In this document: positions 570-9,024 of the stretch, piece after piece
Position numbering within the stretch: position 1 is the first letter of the stretch
Layout of the letters: each line of letters starts with the position of its first letter
DNA from: Rhizobium sp. FY34
GTDB lineage: Bacteria > Pseudomonadota > Alphaproteobacteria > Rhizobiales > Rhizobiaceae
Reading direction: 5' to 3'
Assembly: GCF_005222845.1 (NCBI RefSeq)
Contig: NZ_STFZ01000016.1
Location: 1-64,000, forward strand
DNA: 64,000 bases
Program-made: the position numbers and the translations under genes
Notes under the pieces: generated by a model
Told to the model about the DNA's origin: nothing
Seen by the model: the letters and a program-made list of their open reading frames with translations, nothing else
The model's database searches: none

Positions 570-2450
570 TTACACTGGCCGCTGGCCGTCGTGCGTCAGG
601 GCCAGCGCAACTTTCCTATCAAGTGAGCGCGGGTACGGGACAACCGCGCTGACGAGGTCCGGTGGCGACCCTATCACAATGACGCGGTCGGTCGCCCGGG
701 TCACCGCCGTGTAGATCATTGCGCGATCCATGTTCGCGGAAGGCTGCACCGGTATGACGACGTTTTTGAACTGGCTACCCTGCGCTTTGTGGACGCTGAT
801 GCAGTATGCAAGCGCCAGCCTGTCGATCTCGCTTGGACCGATCCGGTGCTTCCCGTCTTCGAACTCGGCGACCACAGTATCGGCGTCGAGGCCAACCACG
901 CGGCCCATCGAACCGTTCCAGAGATTCCGATCGTAGTCGTTTACGGTCCAGATACAGGGATCGCCCTCGGCAAAACCGTTCAACGACGGAGCGCCGGCGG
1001 CGACCCGTGCGGCATGGAAGTAGGCGTTGATGGCATCAATTCCGGCCGGCCCCGCGTAAACCGAACCGACGACCTGAACTTCCTCGCCTCGAAGGTCGTG
1101 CAAAACATCCTCGATCGCGTGGATTACCCCGTTTCCGTTCGCCCGGACGAGGCTGCACCCGCCGCGGCGGGACGCATAGGCATGAAGGTCGGGAACTTCC
1201 CCGCCACGAATGGCAACCGACACTTGGGGTATTCCCGTGCTTTCGGTAGCCCTGAGAATGCGTGTCAATTCGGTTTTCGGAATCCGCTTCTCTTCGACAA
1301 GCCTGTGAAGTGTCAGACCGAAGCCGATAGGCGGCAACTGAGCGGTGTCGCCGACCAGCAGACAACGCGCTTCCTTCGGCAAATGGAACAGGATAAGGTA
1401 GAGGATCGGGAGGTCGAGCATCGACGCCTCGTCGATGATAACCATCGTATGGCGGCCAAGTTCGATCCTCCCGTCCGCCACACCCTTCAGCCAGGACGCG
1501 ACTGTCTGCGCGTGTTTACCCGTCGCCTCGGCAATTCGCTTGGCAGCCCGTCCGGCTATGGCGAGCTGATAGACTGCCATTCCAAAATTGCGCGCAGTGG
1601 CGTTGACCGCTTTCAACGCCGTGGTCTTTCCCACGCCCGCGCCACCGATCAACAACGAGAAGCGATGGCCAATCGCCATCCCAACCGCCTCGCGCTGCTG
1701 GTCCGTGAGGGTGCCTCGCGGGTCAAATTCATCGAGGAAGTGAGCTACATCCTTCGCCGTAATCCCGTCGAGGAATAGATCGTTGCCATCGACAGCCGCG
1801 ATATGCTCCTCGATGCGGGTCTCGATAAAGCGCTCCATATAGGCCGCTCCCGCAGGCTGGTAGCCACCGTCAATCGGTAGCGCAGCGCGGTCGCCTACAG
1901 CCGCCTCGAGGGCGCGTTCCGCCTTTTCTACGCTGACGTCCAGACGTTTTGCTGTCTGGGCAACCAGCTCGTCGCGCGGACACCAGGTATGCTTGCGGTC
2001 TATCCGATCGTACAGAACCGACTCGACGGCCGCCACCTGTCGCCTGACGTCATTCGCCGGGATGCCAATACCGAAGGCAACACGATCGACCTGACGCCAA
2101 GAGCAGATCGTGAGCAATCGATAGGGATTGTCTCTGATCTTCGCCAGGGCGTCGGGACCCCAGAAGTCCACTGCCTTGCGGGCGACCTTGGGATCGATAC
2201 CGTTCTCGTCGAAGAAGACTACGCAGTCGGCCAGGGCGATCTGGTTGGCCCACGCCTCGACAACGATGGCCGCTTGGTTTCTGTCCAGAACCTCGGCCAG
2301 CCGATCGACATCGCCGTCACCGAGGGCCGTATATAGTTCGGTTCCGAAGTGCTTCCAAAGCCGCGCGGCCGTCGCCTTGCCGACACCGGCAAACTCCGGC
2401 CGCGAAGACAAGAATTCCACGATGTACCTGCCGCGCGGGATGACGTTCAA
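570..2450 (-). CDS. RecD2-like superfamily 1 DNA helicase in a recombinase operon
   Basis: 626 aa. The N-terminal part has a helix-hairpin-helix-like segment (about 20-36) and the DNPYRL motif (107-112) characteristic of RecD2. The helicase core follows: LTDQQREAV (248-256), Walker A GGAGVGKT (269-276), Walker B VIIDEAS (337-343), motif III GDTAQLPP (367-374), then HKAQGSQF and YTAVTRA motifs near the C-terminus. RecD2 proteins unwind DNA 5' to 3' and act without RecBC. No recB or recC is nearby. The start is TTG, supported by AGGAGGG seven bases upstream, and it overlaps the preceding stop as TTGA. Last gene of the six-gene operon, so it probably processes DNA during movement or maintenance of the element; that role is inferred. 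Confidence 0.85.
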   Translation of the reverse strand: MNVIPRGRYIVEFLSSRPEFAGVGKATAARLWKHFGTELYTALGDGDVDRLAEVLDRNQAAIVVEAWANQIALADCVVFFDENGIDPKVARKAVDFWGPDALAKIRDNPYRLLTICSWRQVDRVAFGIGIPANDVRRQVAAVESVLYDRIDRKHTWCPRDELVAQTAKRLDVSVEKAERALEAAVGDRAALPIDGGYQPAGAAYMERFIETRIEEHIAAVDGNDLFLDGITAKDVAHFLDEFDPRGTLTDQQREAVGMAIGHRFSLLIGGAGVGKTTALKAVNATARNFGMAVYQLAIAGRAAKRIAEATGKHAQTVASWLKGVADGRIELGRHTMVIIDEASMLDLPILYLILFHLPKEARCLLVGDTAQLPPIGFGLTLHRLVEEKRIPKTELTRILRATESTGIPQVSVAIRGGEVPDLHAYASRRGGCSLVRANGNGVIHAIEDVLHDLRGEEVQVVGSVYAGPAGIDAINAYFHAARVAAGAPSLNGFAEGDPCIWTVNDYDRNLWNGSMGRVVGLDADTVVAEFEDGKHRIGPSEIDRLALAYCISVHKAQGSQFKNVVIPVQPSANMDRAMIYTAVTRATDRVIVIGSPPDLVSAVVPYPRSLDRKVALALTHDGQRPV

Positions 2451-2833
2451 GGAATGACCCTCCTGCCCGTCAGCGTTGAATGTTCATACCTGGCGACCTT
2501 ATGTCGAAGTTCTAAGTTTTCACTTCGTACCGACGCCAACTGCTGTTCGAGCGCTGTTATCCTCGCCTTGTCGCCGCTGTCGTGGGTAGGCTTCTCCGTC
2601 GATCTCGGCGGCTCAAGGCCCAAATCTTTGACCGCTTGGATCAGCCGGTTTTCGAAGCGGGCATTCTGGTCGAACGTCTCTCTGTTGAAGCCGCAGGCCG
2701 TTGCAACGGCAGTCTTGTTCACCTTGCCGCCACGGCTAGGAAGCTTCAAACCGGCCGCTTGCAGGCGCTCGACATAGGTTTCGAGCTTCGCGTAATTTTC
2801 TTCGCTAATCTTCTGAAAACGGTTGAGGCTCAT
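2447..2833 (-). CDS. Small protein with HTH-like N-terminus and C-terminal coiled coil
   Basis: 128 aa, no family recognised with certainty. Residues about 37-57 (KVNKTAVATACGFNRETF) look like a helix-turn-helix, and about 92-115 form a heptad-rich coiled coil (ITALEQQLASVRSENLELRH). The ATG overlaps the stop of the preceding gene by ATGA and its own stop overlaps the helicase TTG start. The combination suggests a dimeric DNA-binding accessory factor for the recombinases, analogous in position to TnpC of Tn554. No sequence relationship to TnpC is claimed. Confidence 0.75.
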   Translation of the reverse strand: MSLNRFQKISEENYAKLETYVERLQAAGLKLPSRGGKVNKTAVATACGFNRETFDQNARFENRLIQAVKDLGLEPPRSTEKPTHDSGDKARITALEQQLASVRSENLELRHKVARYEHSTLTGRRVIP

Positions 2834-3252
2834 TTCTCCGTACTCCGATCGCGTTCCACCTTGGGCAATGGCATGTTCAAATCGGATTCGGAGAGGCCTT
2901 TGCTTCGAGCGTTATACTGCCAGGTCGCGAACTTCTCGTGGAAGCGGTTCCTCTCCGCTTTCAGCACGGCGATCTCCGCCTCGAGCCTGTCTACCCGACC
3001 AAGTAATATGGCCAATTCGGTTGAAACCGACGAGGCCGACGGCGTCACTGGCGACGAGCGAAGTCTGTCCTTGGCTTGTTGGAAGGCAGTTCGGATGTTT
3101 TCCTGCTTATCCAATCCCTGACGTGTGAAGGGCCGCTTGAGCATGACCCCTACTTGCTCCGTCAGAAGCTCCCAGCTCAACTTTCCCTGCCAAGAGATCA
3201 AGAGGCTAACAATCCGTTCGATCTCATCGTCGCTAAGACGCGCCTTCGCCAT
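2830..3252 (-). CDS. Small coiled-coil accessory protein (TnpC-like position)
   Basis: 140 aa. The N-terminal half is helical and resembles small proteins following tyrosine recombinases in Tn554-type modules. Residues about 78-115 (LAILLGRVDRLEAEIAVLKA and onward) form a clear coiled coil, followed by FHEKFATWQYNA. It starts three bases after the stop of the 707-aa recombinase, with AGGA upstream of the ATG, the only non-overlapping junction of the operon. Probably a non-catalytic helper that orients or tethers the recombinases. The function is inferred from position and architecture only. Confidence 0.75.
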   Translation of the reverse strand: MAKARLSDDEIERIVSLLISWQGKLSWELLTEQVGVMLKRPFTRQGLDKQENIRTAFQQAKDRLRSSPVTPSASSVSTELAILLGRVDRLEAEIAVLKAERNRFHEKFATWQYNARSKGLSESDLNMPLPKVERDRSTEK

Positions 3253-3255
3253 CGA

Positions 3256-5379
3256 CTAATCCTCCCACATTGCGGCGAGGATGCCATCGGCCTCGGCGTC
3301 CTCATCGGAGGGAGCATCATTGCGTCTCGGACGGTGTTCCTTGACCTCTTGTCGGTCGCGAAGAGCCATCGCCACTTCGTTGTCTTGTGAGCCGCCGTCG
3401 AGGTTTACAATCGTGCCGTCGGGGATGGATGGATCGTCGTGAATCGCCAGCATCCTGCGCAGCTTCTCGATGCTTATCTCATGTGCCTGAACCCATTTGT
3501 CCGCACCGTAGTAGTCGTTCCCTATCGCTTCGACGGCGTCCGCGAGTTGCTTCTCGTTCAACGCCAGACGTTTCGCTACGCGCTCTTTGTGTTTCAGGTC
3601 TCCCTTGACGAAGACGTTTTCGGAACAACCGAGGCAATCACCATGGGTCTGGCACGGAAGCAGAGAATAATCGTGGACACAGATACCGAGTTCGGTGACC
3701 AGTGCAGCACCAATTTGGGCATCGGCAAACTCGCGGCGGTCGACAGGTCGGTTTACGCCGGTGCCTTTGGCAGCTTCGAACATCGGCCCGATCCCGCTTC
3801 CGTCGTCCAGGGCCTCCCTGATCTGGCTTAAAACCTCATCGGACGACACGTGATTGTAGGCTTGGTTCTGCTCGACCTTCCGGCCGCTCCATTTTGCGAT
3901 ATCCAGGTCGCTCAAGCCTTTCAGCTGTGCAACAGTATTGAGCCAATGACGGAAGGAGTGGGTGGTGACCCTGATCGGTTTTCCGTTACGTTCCGTAAAT
4001 CCCCATCGGTCAAACACTGAGGGTACTCCGTCGAGTCCCGTAAGCCAGCCTTGGAACTTCGGAACGGTGCAAGCTTCGATCATGCAGGGGAACGTCGCTC
4101 GATTGCGATGTGCACCGTTGTACGGCAGTAGGATTAGGGTTTCCGAGTAGAGCTGATCGCGGGCGCTGTTGAATTGCGGAAAGTCACGTGGAAGCAGCCC
4201 TCGAATGTTTTTTTCAAGGTCTTGGAAGCTGATCTCGTCGATATTGCCTCGTCGGGAAGTCACGGTTCTCCATCTGAGCCTTTGGTCCCTGACATACTGA
4301 TTGGCCGCTGTTCGGCGAGACAATCCGTTAAGCGCCATTAGGTCGCTCTTCGCGATCCACTCCAAGCCGCGCAGATGCGAGAAAGCCTCAGGTAGCCAAA
4401 TCCCATCGGAATATGCCTCGTACCAAGCCGCGACCGCTCTGGGTTCGCCACAAAGCGACCTAAGCCGCTCGACGGCTTGCTGCACTATGGATGCCATGAC
4501 GGAGGGGACCCACTTCACCTGTGGTGGGTTGCCTTTCCCAGGATAGACGCGAATGCCATAAGCTTCCACCATCTCACCCGTCTCTGGATTTCGGGCTTTT
4601 TCATACACCTCGCAATCGAGACGAAGCTGAAGCACCTCATGCGCTCTTATCGGTATCGACACGCAAATTGCACAGATTGAGGAGAACAGTCGGTCAACGA
4701 AGGTATCTGCGTTCCTGAAGACATGGGCGAGCGCATGGTATGCCTCTGGGCTAGGAAGCTTCTCATCGCGCCATGCTTTGGCCTCCTGTCCGAGAACCTC
4801 GGTCTTGTCCTTCGGTTTTTTAATCCCGTGCTTCCACTGAAACGGAGCGTTCAGGAATCTGCGCTCCATACAGAACCGGTGAACCTGTTGGATGTAAATC
4901 GCGAACTGGTAGTGACGTCCGGCTCCGACGCCGTCCCTCGCCATCGCGACGGCAGTATTGAGCACAAAGACGTTCAGATTTTCGATGACGGGTTCGGTTC
5001 GCAGAGACCTGAAGGCCGCCTCGATGAACTGTAATGCATAAAGCCGCTTCACTGTGTTTTCGAACACCACGGGGGCCGACGAGTGCAGGTACCGGATGTA
5101 GGCCTTGGCAAACTCCTTTATACCGTCCGCGAGCGGCGCGCCGCTGACGACCTCCTGCCTATTGGTCACTGTGGAACCCAGGTTGTAAAACGCCAGAACG
5201 CGGCTGTCTCTGTTCTGACCCTTCGTGACGAACGATGCACCGACCTCCCATAGGTCCCCCGGCCACGCGTCTTTGGGGGTCAATACGTCGAGCGCCTTGG
5301 CGAGAGCGATGAAGGTATGCACACGGTCTGCGGGATACTCGAGACCAGTTGCTACCAGCTTAACGACGTTCCCGGTCAC
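3256..5379 (-). CDS. Large tyrosine recombinase (third of trio) with C-terminal Cys cluster
   Basis: 707 aa, far longer than the roughly 300-400 aa of a typical phage integrase. The catalytic constellation is visible: Arg245 (PIRAHEVLQLR), a probable Lys near 282-289, H474-S-F-R477-H478, Trp497 and the nucleophile Tyr508 in QNQAYNH. After the catalytic domain comes a Cys/His cluster, ICVHDYSLLPC...DCLGC (Cys567, 576, 582, 585), that looks zinc-binding. The GTG start has GAGGTGG upstream and overlaps the preceding stop as GTGA. It catalyses DNA strand exchange, presumably with the two upstream recombinases, during integration or excision of the element. Confidence 0.85.
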   Translation of the reverse strand: MTGNVVKLVATGLEYPADRVHTFIALAKALDVLTPKDAWPGDLWEVGASFVTKGQNRDSRVLAFYNLGSTVTNRQEVVSGAPLADGIKEFAKAYIRYLHSSAPVVFENTVKRLYALQFIEAAFRSLRTEPVIENLNVFVLNTAVAMARDGVGAGRHYQFAIYIQQVHRFCMERRFLNAPFQWKHGIKKPKDKTEVLGQEAKAWRDEKLPSPEAYHALAHVFRNADTFVDRLFSSICAICVSIPIRAHEVLQLRLDCEVYEKARNPETGEMVEAYGIRVYPGKGNPPQVKWVPSVMASIVQQAVERLRSLCGEPRAVAAWYEAYSDGIWLPEAFSHLRGLEWIAKSDLMALNGLSRRTAANQYVRDQRLRWRTVTSRRGNIDEISFQDLEKNIRGLLPRDFPQFNSARDQLYSETLILLPYNGAHRNRATFPCMIEACTVPKFQGWLTGLDGVPSVFDRWGFTERNGKPIRVTTHSFRHWLNTVAQLKGLSDLDIAKWSGRKVEQNQAYNHVSSDEVLSQIREALDDGSGIGPMFEAAKGTGVNRPVDRREFADAQIGAALVTELGICVHDYSLLPCQTHGDCLGCSENVFVKGDLKHKERVAKRLALNEKQLADAVEAIGNDYYGADKWVQAHEISIEKLRRMLAIHDDPSIPDGTIVNLDGGSQDNEVAMALRDRQEVKEHRPRRNDAPSDEDAEADGILAAMWED

Positions 5380-6896
5380 GCGGCCACCTCACCGCTAATT
5401 TCTCTTTTGACGGCACAGAGCTGGATGACCTCGGCCGCCGCTAGGATGGTTCGGTCCCTTATCGTGTAAATCTTGGGGGAATATCCTTCCGCTTCCATCC
5501 GGTCGCGGTCGGCGATCAGCGCCGCCATGAACTCCTCGTGCGGGCCGTCGATCCACGGTTGGAAATGGCGACAGGTGTAGCAGGCGAACGGGGCGGCCAG
5601 ACCGCAAAAGCTCATCTGACCACACGTCCCGAGCGCCTCCGCCACGTTGTTGAGAGACCTGTCAAAGATACGGCTGGAGCAATCGCCACCCCGCCGCGCT
5701 TCCTGTTCGGTGGTGACTACGACGCCGGCGAACGCGTGCGCAAGCGGTGCCATCTCCATCGCTAGGTGACGATCGAGACGGAGGACCATCGCGGGGCTGG
5801 CTTCGAAGTAGACTTCGACGTTTTGCGTATCCGAATGATCGAGAAGCTCGGCGACCGTATGCTTGTCCTTGCCGTCGTCCACGGCGCGCTGGGCCAAGGT
5901 GATGCGGAACCTGCGTGCGTTCGTCTTGAGCCCCGTTATTTGGCCAATCGTATTGTTCACAACCCTGCCGATCTCGCCTGAGGTGACATGGTAACGCAGT
6001 CCAGGAAGCCTTCCTTCGCGGTAAGCAAAGAACATCGGACTCTCGTTTTCTTGGAGGCCAAAACGTTTGCGGCGATGCTTGTTGTTGTCGATAACGCGCT
6101 CCAGCAGGTTGCCCACCTGCTTGCCGCAATAGCGGGTTTTGAACGAATCTCTTGCCTTCTGACCATGCTGCTTCGCCCGAGGCATGCGGAGCGCATATTG
6201 ACGTCCCTCATCACCTTCGGAGACAAGAAGGTCCTTCTCTTTCAGAGCTGCGATCTGGATCGGGCGTGGGCCGTAGGCAAGGAACAGCCAGGTGATTGCG
6301 AAGGCGTCGAGGTCGATCTCTCCTTTCGCGTAGGCATCGTTCAACGCCGACTGGATCGTGAGAAGTTCGGTATCGGTGAACGCGCCTTTCTCGGGATCAC
6401 GCGTCCGTATCGAGGTCCCCTTGATATTTCCGCGGATGGTCGCGGCGGTGAGGTACTCAAGCGCGTCATTCGACGCGATGCCGAACCCGAGATTTTCCAT
6501 GTCGCTCAGCAAAATGCGAACGACAGCGAGTTTCCACTCGGTTGCGGCGTTGAGGCGGCTCTTCAACGTCAAGATATGAGAGAGTTCGATCCTGTCGTGA
6601 ACAGTATCGGAGTCTTGTAAGACTACCCGATAGAAACGAAAAAATTGGTTGTGCAGGTTGCTCGAATGCGAGAACGATTTGTTCTGCAATGAGATAGTCA
6701 GTGCCCATTTCAACCGATGGACCATTCTCCTTGAAAGCCTGTCGAAGATGCCGAACTTCATTCGCTCGCTATGAGTTAGCCCGCCCACGGGCCAGACGTC
6801 ATCGTTAGGATGGAACTCGATACCCTCAAGCGTCGTCGCGGTCGACGGCAGCGGTGGCTGTAGCTCGGTTTGATCGACTTTCTGACGCACAGTCAT
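5376..6896 (-). CDS. Tyrosine recombinase (second of trio) with altered HxxR box and C-terminal Cys cluster
   Basis: 506 aa. The catalytic domain contains Arg211 (YGPRPIQIA), a divergent box II NARRFRIT in which Arg328 replaces the usual His of HxxR, His354 in LLDHSD and the nucleophile Tyr363 in VEVYFE. A C-terminal extension has CGQMSFCGLAAPFACYTC (Cys425, 431, 439, 442), a likely zinc site followed by RHFQPWIDGPH. The size and C-terminal cysteines recall TnpB of Tn554-type transposons. ATG start overlapping the preceding gene by ATGA. Likely a partner in a multi-recombinase complex; whether it is catalytically active by itself is uncertain because of the box II change. Confidence 0.85.
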   Translation of the reverse strand: MTVRQKVDQTELQPPLPSTATTLEGIEFHPNDDVWPVGGLTHSERMKFGIFDRLSRRMVHRLKWALTISLQNKSFSHSSNLHNQFFRFYRVVLQDSDTVHDRIELSHILTLKSRLNAATEWKLAVVRILLSDMENLGFGIASNDALEYLTAATIRGNIKGTSIRTRDPEKGAFTDTELLTIQSALNDAYAKGEIDLDAFAITWLFLAYGPRPIQIAALKEKDLLVSEGDEGRQYALRMPRAKQHGQKARDSFKTRYCGKQVGNLLERVIDNNKHRRKRFGLQENESPMFFAYREGRLPGLRYHVTSGEIGRVVNNTIGQITGLKTNARRFRITLAQRAVDDGKDKHTVAELLDHSDTQNVEVYFEASPAMVLRLDRHLAMEMAPLAHAFAGVVVTTEQEARRGGDCSSRIFDRSLNNVAEALGTCGQMSFCGLAAPFACYTCRHFQPWIDGPHEEFMAALIADRDRMEAEGYSPKIYTIRDRTILAAAEVIQLCAVKREISGEVAA

Positions 6897-8176
6897 GGGT
6901 TTTGCCCTTCGGTTTTGACGCTAATATCAAGCTTGTTGTGCATTTTCCGGAGGACCTCGTTGGACCTGCGGGCGACGGTTCGACGGAGGTAAAACTTCGC
7001 AGAAGCCTCGTCCCTCCAACCCATGATCCTCCGCCGCCACTTCACCTCGTCCTGTTCCGAGATACCGTTTCTGTCGACATAATCGGAAAAGGTCTCGTTC
7101 CATGAATGCCTGAGGACATGCGGCGTGACGTCACCAGGCAATCCGGGAACGCGCTCCCGAAGCACCTCGAACATCTTGTTGACGTTCGAGGGGGACATGG
7201 CCGCGCCGGTAGGAATGCTGAGGATCAGGAACTGTCCCTCTGCCTTCTTGGCACCTGGCAATTTCGAGCGATGGTGGACAATCCACTCGTAGACGAGCTG
7301 CGTAGTCCGAGGGCTAAGCTCGAGCTTGCGGGCAGCGGTTTTCGTGCTCGCTCCCGGCGCTATGCGCCTGTCGAGGACGTTGTCTGGACGACGATGGATG
7401 GTGATGTAGCCTCTTGGACCCGTCACATCGCAGTCGCCGACCATGATCCCGAGAAGTTCCCCGCGCCGGATGCCCAGTTCGATCAGTAGCCTGATCATTA
7501 CGAAATTGCGGAAACGGACTGTACGTTCAAACGGATTGTCCGGGTGGTCCGGATCGATGACCGCGCGGAGCCGCACCAGCACTTCCGGATCAAGCCCCTC
7601 CCGCTGGCCGACATCGTCGCGGTTTCGCTTCCGTAGGCCGCGGGCATGGGTGGCGAGTTTGCTCAGGCATTCGTCCCGCATATCGCGGTATAGAGCCCAC
7701 CGCTCTGGCCAAGCCTGGAGACGTGAAAGATGGTCCGAGCTGGTGAACTCGAGAAATGACCGAATGACACTCAGTCGATTGCCCTTCTCGCCCGACTTGA
7801 CGCCACCTGTCGGCATGTGACCACTTGGCGTGATCACGTTTGACGCTCGGCGATGAAGTGCGGACAGTAGATCGTCAAGGGACCAACCACACGCGTTTAC
7901 GAGGTCGATGACCTCTGAGAGCTCGAGGAACGTTCCCTCCTGCAGGCGCTCTCCGATGTCGATACCGCGCAAGTCCGCCCAGAGGTAAAAAACCATAAGG
8001 GAACGAAGTTCATTGAAGAGTGTGTTTGGCTGAACTCCAAGCGCCCGTCGGTGGGCGGTAGTCCAAAAACTCGGAGCGTCGATTGGAACGCCGGTAGACG
8101 CCCGGACAAGGAAGGGCATCCGCTCGCCATTGGAGAAGCGGGACCAACGAACAATAAATGGACTTTCGTTCTTCAT
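6893..8176 (-). CDS. Tyrosine recombinase (first of trio)
   Basis: 427 aa from the chosen ATG; an in-frame TTG at 8206 would add ten residues encoded within the palindrome. The N-terminal half is a SAM-like core-binding domain (about 45-190). The catalytic domain has Arg237/238 (GIRRGELL), Lys279 or 284, H353-V-L-R356-H357, Trp387 (GWRDEASAKF) and Tyr396, so the full tyrosine recombinase set is present. No Shine-Dalgarno is seen before either start. Its 5' end touches a 100-bp palindrome, so expression may be controlled by DNA or RNA structure. First gene of the operon, comparable in position to tnpA of Tn554 and the first gene of RIT or gamma-mobile trios. Confidence 0.88.
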   Translation of the reverse strand: MKNESPFIVRWSRFSNGERMPFLVRASTGVPIDAPSFWTTAHRRALGVQPNTLFNELRSLMVFYLWADLRGIDIGERLQEGTFLELSEVIDLVNACGWSLDDLLSALHRRASNVITPSGHMPTGGVKSGEKGNRLSVIRSFLEFTSSDHLSRLQAWPERWALYRDMRDECLSKLATHARGLRKRNRDDVGQREGLDPEVLVRLRAVIDPDHPDNPFERTVRFRNFVMIRLLIELGIRRGELLGIMVGDCDVTGPRGYITIHRRPDNVLDRRIAPGASTKTAARKLELSPRTTQLVYEWIVHHRSKLPGAKKAEGQFLILSIPTGAAMSPSNVNKMFEVLRERVPGLPGDVTPHVLRHSWNETFSDYVDRNGISEQDEVKWRRRIMGWRDEASAKFYLRRTVARRSNEVLRKMHNKLDISVKTEGQNP

Positions 8177-8276
8177 TGATACGGATGTCGGCCGCATGCC
8201 GTCCAATGATGGTCGAAACCGACGAAACTGGGTCAGGTTCAGCCATCATTAGACGGTATGCGGTCGACATGTATCA
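8177..8276. repeat. Imperfect palindrome of about 100 bp upstream of the recombinase operon
   Basis: The left arm 8177-8212 and right arm 8243-8276 are inverted copies. Over about 34 bases they differ by three substitutions and one 2-base gap (left arm begins TGATACGGATG, right arm reads TGATACATG on the other strand). The 30-base centre is itself partly symmetric (GAAACCGAC against GTCAGGTTC). The first recombinase ATG lies directly outside the left arm. It could be a recombination site, an autoregulatory operator, or a hairpin in the mRNA leader. Confidence 0.7.
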
Positions 8277-8322: not shown

Positions 8323-8472
8323 CAACACAAATCGACACTGTAATTTTGCAAAACTGGCCACTACTCACCTGACGAAAATGAGGCCAACTGGCATAAAAAG
8401 GTGCAACTCCGATTAACGCAGCTTATTCAGAGAGATCGGCTGTCTAATTTACAAAACGCCGACCACTCTCTG

Positions 8473-9024
8473 CTAGAAGGGAATGTCGTCGTCCAGGTCC
8501 CGCGCAAAACCGCCGCCGGAACCACCAGCCGACGCGCCGCCACGACCGGAACCGGAGCTTGCCGGCGCACGATCGTAATCGTCGCCATAACCGCCTCCAA
8601 AATCTCCGCCGCCGCCAGCCGGTGCACCGCGGCCTCCGCCGAAATTGCCGCCGCCCTGGCCCGCTCCGTCACCGCGACCGCCGAGCATGGTCAGCGTCGA
8701 GTTGAAGCCCTGCAGCACGACTTCCGTCGAATAACGGTCATTGCCGGTCTGATCCTGCCACTTGCGGGTCTGCAACTGACCTTCGATGTAAACGGTCGAG
8801 CCCTTTTTCAGATACTGCTCGGCGACCTTGCAGAGACCTTCATTGAAGATCACCACCGTGTGCCATTCCGTCTTCTCTTTGCGCTCGCCGCTGTTGCGGT
8901 CGCGCCAGCTTTCAGACGTTGCAATGCGCAGATTGGCGATCGGACGACCATCCTGCGTCCGGCGGATTTCGGGGTCTGCCCCGAGATTGCCGATCAAAAT
9001 AACCTTGTTGACGCTGCCAGCCAT
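8473..9024 (-). CDS. ssb: Single-stranded DNA-binding protein
   Basis: 183 aa. The OB-fold domain spans about 1-110, beginning [21 protein letters not shown] Gly-rich flexible linker follows (about 112-170), and the acidic tip ends DDDIPF, the conserved tail that recruits repair and replication proteins. It coats single-stranded DNA as a tetramer in replication, recombination and repair. It diverges from uvrA across a 279-bp region carrying a LexA box, as is common in alphaproteobacteria. Its 3' end marks the first core gene after the recombinase island. Confidence 0.97.

Follow-up and report, generated by a model that had tools for sequence, protein, structure and literature searches.

The analysed window comprises the first 64,000 nucleotides of contig NZ_STFZ01000016.1 from Rhizobium sp. 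FY34, and the ORF listing places six open reading frames, all on the minus strand, at positions 570-8206, directly after ssb. In the direction of transcription they encode a GinA-like tyrosine recombinase (YR1, 6893-8176; 427 aa from the ATG at 8176, with the frame open to 8206 and giving 437 aa if a TTG, with which the ATG is in frame, is the start), a GinB-like tyrosine recombinase (YR2, 5376-6896, 506 aa), a large tyrosine recombinase in the GinC position (YR3, 3256-5379, 707 aa) with an R...HxxRH...Y signature and a C-terminal cysteine cluster, a small coiled-coil protein in the GinD position (cc1, 2830-3252, 140 aa), a second small protein distantly related to the VPA1267 family (cc2, 2447-2833, 128 aa), and a RecD2-like SF1B helicase with intact motifs (570-2450, 626 aa). 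The successive junctions from YR1 to the helicase are ATGA, GTGA, a 3-base gap, ATGA and TTGA. Both the ORF list and the junction sequences agree with the original prediction of six same-strand genes with these overlaps, and its reading of them as a mobile-element recombination operon is supported; the predicted span contained the right genes, but its end at 8276 lies about 100 bp upstream of the YR1 ATG.

In Pfam and NCBIfam searches YR1 matched Phage_integrase (37.7 bits, cut-off 27.1) and YR2 the site-specific integrase model NF041502 (423.8 bits, cut-off 350), while YR3 had no Pfam integrase match. A structure search with the AlphaFold model of YR3 (mean pLDDT 70.7) recovered structures of integron integrase, XerH and Cre, the best at E 1.2e-4 and five hits at ≤0.001, with TM-scores by query length that are low, at 0.20-0.29. 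Its catalytic residues are kept: in an alignment of 38 rows that takes in the 14 helicase-free operons discussed below, R245, R477 and Y508 are present in 38/38 and H474 and H478 in 37/38. The helicase scored 349.6 bits against RecD2 (TIGR01448), below the equivalog cut-off of 500, over profile positions 74-697 of 713, and its closest solved structure is 3e1s. Helicases of the RecD2 type act in repair. Homology links cc1 to the fourth gene in four-gene operons. For cc2, which has a predicted helix-turn-helix-like part followed by a long C-terminal helix (model pLDDT 77.5), the match to VPA1267_fam is weak (42.2 bits, cut-off 90), and Foldseek gave no fold relative at ≤0.001. Both cc2 and cc1-type proteins weakly match DUF6262, below its cut-off, a domain that we take to be linked to TnpC.

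The insertion site of the island could be read from its two ends. On the left, the element begins at window position 8473 and meets the 3′ end of ssb (8473-9024, minus strand), whose product retains its normal end, DDDIPF. An attL core, CCCTTCT, lies within the last ssb codons (8475-8481, minus) and coincides with the crossover point of occupied versus empty sites, and a left subterminal motif, TGTAAATTAG (TGTAAACTA in most relatives; 8444-8453, minus), has an inverted copy near the right end; the subterminal repeats of the element are TGTAAACT. A matching right end adjoins marC and gyrA on contig C18 of the same genome. From the arrangement in relatives we infer that these are the two ends of one island, the middle of which, between contigs C8 and C18, is absent from the assembly. 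Empty sites are present in genus-mates, where uninserted copies read CCNTTYTGA: ssb ends in TGA in 21 of the 23 genus-mates compared, which are those without the element, and in the other two (G002, G015), as in the window, it ends in TAG, followed by the GTAAACTA end (GTAAATTA in the window). The direct-repeat core common to both ends is CCNTTYT. On the helicase side, the tail 3′ of the gene (309-569, minus) is homologous to the tail of a cargo-free relative, L079, in a match that covers 309-640 at 91% identity. L079 is complete at 8,211 bp, with these six as its only recognised genes, and is the one element in which the cargo-free form is seen; further complete elements measure 8,431, 16,185 and 22,063 bp. 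The comparison of insertion sites proposed earlier yielded a left end at ssb, a right end at marC-gyrA, an empty site and cargo of variable length. The six genes appear to be the full moving kit of a mobile island with the 3′ end of ssb as its target.

The same order recurs elsewhere. Among 17 helicase loci in genomes, all six genes are adjacent in eight, are accompanied by extra DNA in three and are decayed in one; four have no full trio in the examined flank (L088, L091, L092, L095), two of these, L091 and L092, keeping cc2-type genes and L095 consisting of fragments, and the sequence of L089 begins 336 bp before the helicase. In L086 and L093 other genes separate YR3 from cc1. The order is also found in G177, G983, L070 and G123, the last from another family of the same order of bacteria, and because it persists there at 24-44% protein identity, chance association is excluded. 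Nine of 14 helicase records from a plasmid collection were read, and the layout is present in five (L108, L110, L111, L115, L116), with the fourth gene identified by position alone in all of these except L111; the second-pass profile scores used here are inflated, as the profiles include the scored sequences. The remaining four (L109, L112, L113, L114) lack a trio in the examined flank and, together with the four genome loci above, rule out the idea that the helicase always stands beside trios. The helicase is present in six of eight sampled genomes with a GinC- or GinB-type match (G000, G002, G123, G177, G769, G983; absent from G323 and G1082). The six-gene order spans alphaproteobacteria, one betaproteobacterium (L111) and genomes of other classes (among them L070). 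VPA1267-type genes stand away from the helicase in 2 of 12 genomes (G786, G791), and none of the six families was seen around those at L077 and L078. Since L079 holds only the six genes and their order recurs across classes, cc2 and the helicase look like core genes rather than cargo. The 14 helicase-free trio operons described below also show no convincing cc2.

Our best reading is that the window's island is a helicase-bearing, GInt-like variant, GInts being compared here by published description. As in GInts (Tn6571-type, ginABCD; Bardaji 2017, PMC5385486), three recombinase genes and a small fourth gene form an operon at one end of the element, insertion at the end of ssb leaves its product intact between short imperfect direct repeats, and variable cargo lies between the operon and the far end, here in elements of 8.2 to 22 kb. 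With the ssb target and genes one to four in agreement with GInts, the set counts as a variant of an already known type of element. GInts are also described with a TnpC-like helix-loop-helix GinD, a short AT-rich 3′ end, a circular intermediate and a requirement for all four gin genes; in PMC5385486 some GInts lie where a ribonucleotide reductase gene ends. L069 adjoins the 3′ end of what we judge by reading to be a putative ribonucleotide reductase gene. GInt cargo starts after ginD, whereas here cc2 and the helicase intervene; a cargo-free form exists here; and YR3 keeps R, HxxRH and Y, whereas GinC of published GInts is described as lacking the first arginine (PMC5385486) or a catalytic set that includes the tyrosine (PMC10214605). 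The reference GInt, that of P. stutzeri DSM 4166, has GinC WP_014595881.1 and GinD WP_043942113.1, as named in PMC10214605. One survey reports ginC-ginD blocks to be absent from Alphaproteobacteria, and a helicase goes unmentioned in the main texts of the GInt papers searched. The earlier statement that no named family has the full set holds to the extent that the six genes are absent from the searched main texts on GInts and on strand-biased circularizing elements (SEs), but it left GInts, the nearest family, unnamed.

We consider it somewhat probable that these genes make up the core of a GInt-type island at the ssb 3′ end and that its helicase drives unwinding during copy-out. By analogy with published GInt genetics, YR1-YR3 and the GinD-like cc1 would perform attL x attR recombination. 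Conservation and predicted domains suggest that cc2 could bind DNA through its helix-turn-helix-like part, pair through its coiled coil and bring the helicase to the recombination intermediate. This structure, a figure-eight bridged by a single strand, would probably be unwound by the helicase, after which replication would copy the element out as a circle. The helicase may power the island's copying, and a replicative or single-strand route, as originally suggested, is plausible. In PMC5385486, PMC9345347 and PMC10214605, SEs are given a copy-out model, and empty sites are missing for some GInts. Four-gene GInts function without the helicase, according to PMC5385486, so the enzyme is dispensable for recombination chemistry, and those elements would use host helicases for the unwinding step. 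It is possible, but doubtful, that cc2 together with the helicase is a portable engine for copy-out that several different multi-recombinase operons took up: GInt-like operons in alphaproteobacteria, in a betaproteobacterium (L111) and outside the class (L070, L074, L075), and operons of other layouts, also outside the class (L071, L072, L073). If so, the pair would mark out a class of tyrosine-recombinase elements able to move replicatively under their own power, without borrowed host helicases.

A rather unlikely alternative to copy-out is ordinary cut-out and paste-in excision, with the helicase helping only later, in moving Holliday junctions along, in removing bound recombinase or in restarting a fork at the nick. 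Such a function would suit the repair role of RecD2-type enzymes, and PMC5385486 reports empty sites for some GInts, but for other GInts in the same source, and for SEs, an empty site was not detected.

We regard as improbable a view in which the pair was acquired early as cargo, for example for defence or stability, in first place behind a standard four-gene GInt. In its favour, we read 14 helicase-free trio operons, a hand-picked sample rather than a census, drawn from 6 of 89 YR3-matching and 7 of 63 YR2-matching plasmid records plus L068 and L106; L053, which is decayed with YR1 on the opposite strand, was excluded, and the operon of L118 is interrupted by an IS. In profile searches cc2 was not convincingly present in any of the 14: with the first-pass profile nothing fell below 1e-5 (best 3e-3, L048), and the second-pass matches of L052 (1e-5) and L048 (2e-5) are read as coiled-coil similarity. 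Among the PADLOC models, RecD-like ones match the helicase at up to 153.1 bits, and on a YR3 tree, a quick one with long deep branches that we flag, the helicase label requires at least four changes, compatible with gain or loss, helicase-free L106 being nested within a helicase-bearing group. Against the early-cargo view, the 8.2-kb L079 retains both genes although it has no recognised gene beyond the six, the 4-base cc2/helicase overlap is kept at 8/8 loci with adjacent genes, and the position of the pair is unchanged across alphaproteobacteria, a betaproteobacterium and genomes outside the class. The distances of the pair also correlate with those of the recombinases. With L087 and L094 removed beforehand, rho was 0.777 for YR3 against helicase (n=22), 0.638 for the 196 pairs below 45% YR3 identity, and 0.865 for cc2 against helicase (n=21), and 0 of 999 permutations were equally high. 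That this is a plain GInt with an incidental, local helicase is very improbable: layout and site are those of GInts, but the recurrence of all six genes in order, in G123 at 24-44% identity and in separate plasmid records, already contradicts it.

Other multi-recombinase elements share parts of the plan. SEs, compared by description, have several recombinase-fold proteins, a small protein and inverted terminal motifs, but their order is intA-tfp-intB-srap (PMC9345347, PMC10214605), and the main texts of these papers do not contain the word helicase. Tn554 (tnpABC) also sets a small TnpC-like partner beside multiple tyrosine recombinases, but these are two, TnpA and TnpB, against three in the window, and it is not known to carry a helicase (PMC10214605). 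The RIT archetype has three recombinases of 315-410 aa (PMC10214605), against 427, 506 and 707 aa in the window. RIT elements have 34-bp terminal inverted repeats; short inverted subterminal motifs were noted in the elements studied here. Gamma-mobile trios (GmtY-GmtZ-GmtX) had also been named as sharing part of the plan, and they are three-gene recombinase operons, with cc2 distantly related to VPA1267, a family whose name presumably denotes a neighbour of the trio. Membership is unsupported, and the family was rejected: none of the six window proteins matched GmtY (NF040693, cut-off 340) at E≤1, and cc2 or the helicase was found at 0/4 GmtY loci with readable flanks, among five loci of which L131 ends at a contig edge and L133, which is readable, scores under the GmtY cut-off.

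The naturally occurring cargo-free six-gene element of 8.2 kb, from Ensifer sp. IC4062, with clear ends, a known target, and occupied and empty sites in relatives, offers a compact test system for how GInts, SEs and Tn554 circularize and whether they replicate. Were the helicase to drive copy-out, it would be, to our knowledge, the first element-encoded motor for such transposition. Some of these islands carry defence genes, on the spread of which their mode of movement bears; contig C18 carries Mza-like cargo.

As the original prediction held, the window carries six successive minus-strand genes, encoding three tyrosine recombinases (YR1, YR2 and YR3), two small coiled-coil proteins (cc1 and cc2) and a RecD2-like helicase, joined through overlaps of ATGA and GTGA, a 3-base gap, and overlaps of ATGA and TTGA. 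YR1 has 427 aa from an ATG start at 8176, or 437 aa from a TTG start farther upstream. The source genome is 5.04 Mb, and the window is the initial 64 kb of its contig C8.

This gene order recurs. A scan of genome contigs with a three-row helicase alignment yielded 17 helicase loci, at eight of which the six genes directly follow one another in the same order (L079-L085 and L087, the helicase being cut by the contig end in L087 and shortened near one in L084); L082 is Neorhizobium galegae DS1978, family Rhizobiaceae. Extra DNA separates YR3 from cc1 at three of the 17 (L086, where YR2 is split, L090 and L093), one (L094) is decayed, and the full recombinase trio was not seen within the available flank at five. 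In the Bradyrhizobium copies L086 (7732-8733) and L093 (6699-7718), NTP_transf_8 nucleotidyltransferase genes lie between YR3 and cc1 on the operon strand. Beyond the scan, the order is found in genomes G123, G177 and G983, in L070 from another class of the phylum, in L074 and L075, where gene 4 is recognised by position only, and on a Paraburkholderia replicon (L111). Plasmids of Rhizobium, Sinorhizobium, Mesorhizobium and Bradyrhizobium share the layout, with helicase identities of 31-34%. In counts that each include the window's own genome, YR3 was matched in three of 150 relatives and in four of the 385 genomes searched from the class, and the YR2-type family in five of the 297 from the order; the helicase is present in six of the eight distinct genomes so matched.

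The contents of four complete elements argue for placing cc2 and the helicase in the element core rather than in its cargo. The element of Ensifer sp. IC4062 (L079; 8,211 bp) spans ssb to just ahead of marC-gyrA; besides the six genes it has ~0.4 kb, where only stop-to-stop frames of at most 149 residues were seen. Alone among the four, it lacks any candidate cargo. That of Mesorhizobium soli (L083; 8,431 bp) has ~0.7 kb after the helicase, possibly with a small gene, and those of L080 and the genus-mate G002 reach 16,185 and 22,063 bp. Within the G002 cargo (L013, 18339-19999), a gene with matches to two families of the thymine-modification type, aGPT-PPlase3 and ADDT, lies next to a thymidylate-synthase-like gene. 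In L083 (12609-18763) the right end is TTCTAG, the left-end signature, and marC lies only ~5.5 kb farther on; this is perhaps a second island in tandem. Since the window matches the L079 tail (91%) down to position 309, its cargo or insertion begins at or beyond that point. Positions 1-90, at the contig start, read as resembling an IS transposase 3' end.

Helicase-free operons also exist: a hand-picked sample numbered 14, with an ssb match within the locus in 11. A YR3 tree covers 38 loci, of which 24 have the helicase and 14 are these operons. On it the helicase label requires no fewer than 4 changes, where shuffled labels average 11.7 (0 of 500 shuffles as low); helicase-free L106 nests within a helicase-bearing group. 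Helicase distances correlate with those of YR2 (0.746, n=21), YR3 (0.777, n=22) and cc2 (0.865, n=21); for none of the three did any of 999 permutations reach as high a value. On two E. coli plasmids (L117, 13016-17779; L118, 14233-18996) an annotated avs4 defence gene directly follows helicase-free operons at ssb.

Pairing of the helicase with a gene of the VPA1267 family, to which cc2 is distantly related, is possibly a wider pattern. This family matched 12 of 398 phylum genomes, 10 with a RecD2-like helicase within 2 kb; among them, L071-L073 carry the pair after different recombinase operons (for example, genes of 478, 1114 and 224 aa) that fall below the GmtY cut-off. The pair was not found in four readable GmtY loci.

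The window element resembles GInt, the known three-recombinase island, in layout, insertion site and the carriage of variable cargo, but departs from it in cargo position and in residues of the third recombinase, GinC, and is therefore called a GInt-like variant. According to PMC5385486, all four gin genes are needed, and some GInts had no detected empty site. Strand-biased circularizing elements (SEs) are described as probably copying out by way of a figure-eight bridged by a single strand (PMC9345347 and PMC10214605); a helicase encoded by the element itself, together with a DNA-binding partner, would fit the unwinding step of such copy-out. The word 'helicase' does not occur in the main texts of PMC5385486, PMC10214605, PMC9345347 and PMC10121019. 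Among the titles listed by wider literature searches, which covered few subscription journals and main texts only, none was recognisable as the six-gene set; this does not prove its absence from print.

In the helicase, motifs I, II, III, V and VI are near-invariant over 24 aligned rows, gaps aside; among solved structures the RecD2-type entry 3e1s is its closest relative (E 3.5e-70). RecD2-type enzymes act in the 5'-3' direction. In alignments YR3 retains the recombinase residues, and its structure model (mean pLDDT 70.7) matches integron-integrase, XerH and Cre entries; in YR2, R331 and Y363 are present in all 37 rows, H354 in 34 and R211 in 31, and the first histidine position is variable. 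The cc2 prediction has an N-terminal helix, then a helix-turn-helix-like part, which on our reading of the model consists of helices 40-47 and 52-56, and lastly a long helix at the C terminus. A Rhodovastum plasmid (L109, 7497-11073) carries, in order, an annotated primase-like gene, a cc2-like gene and the helicase.
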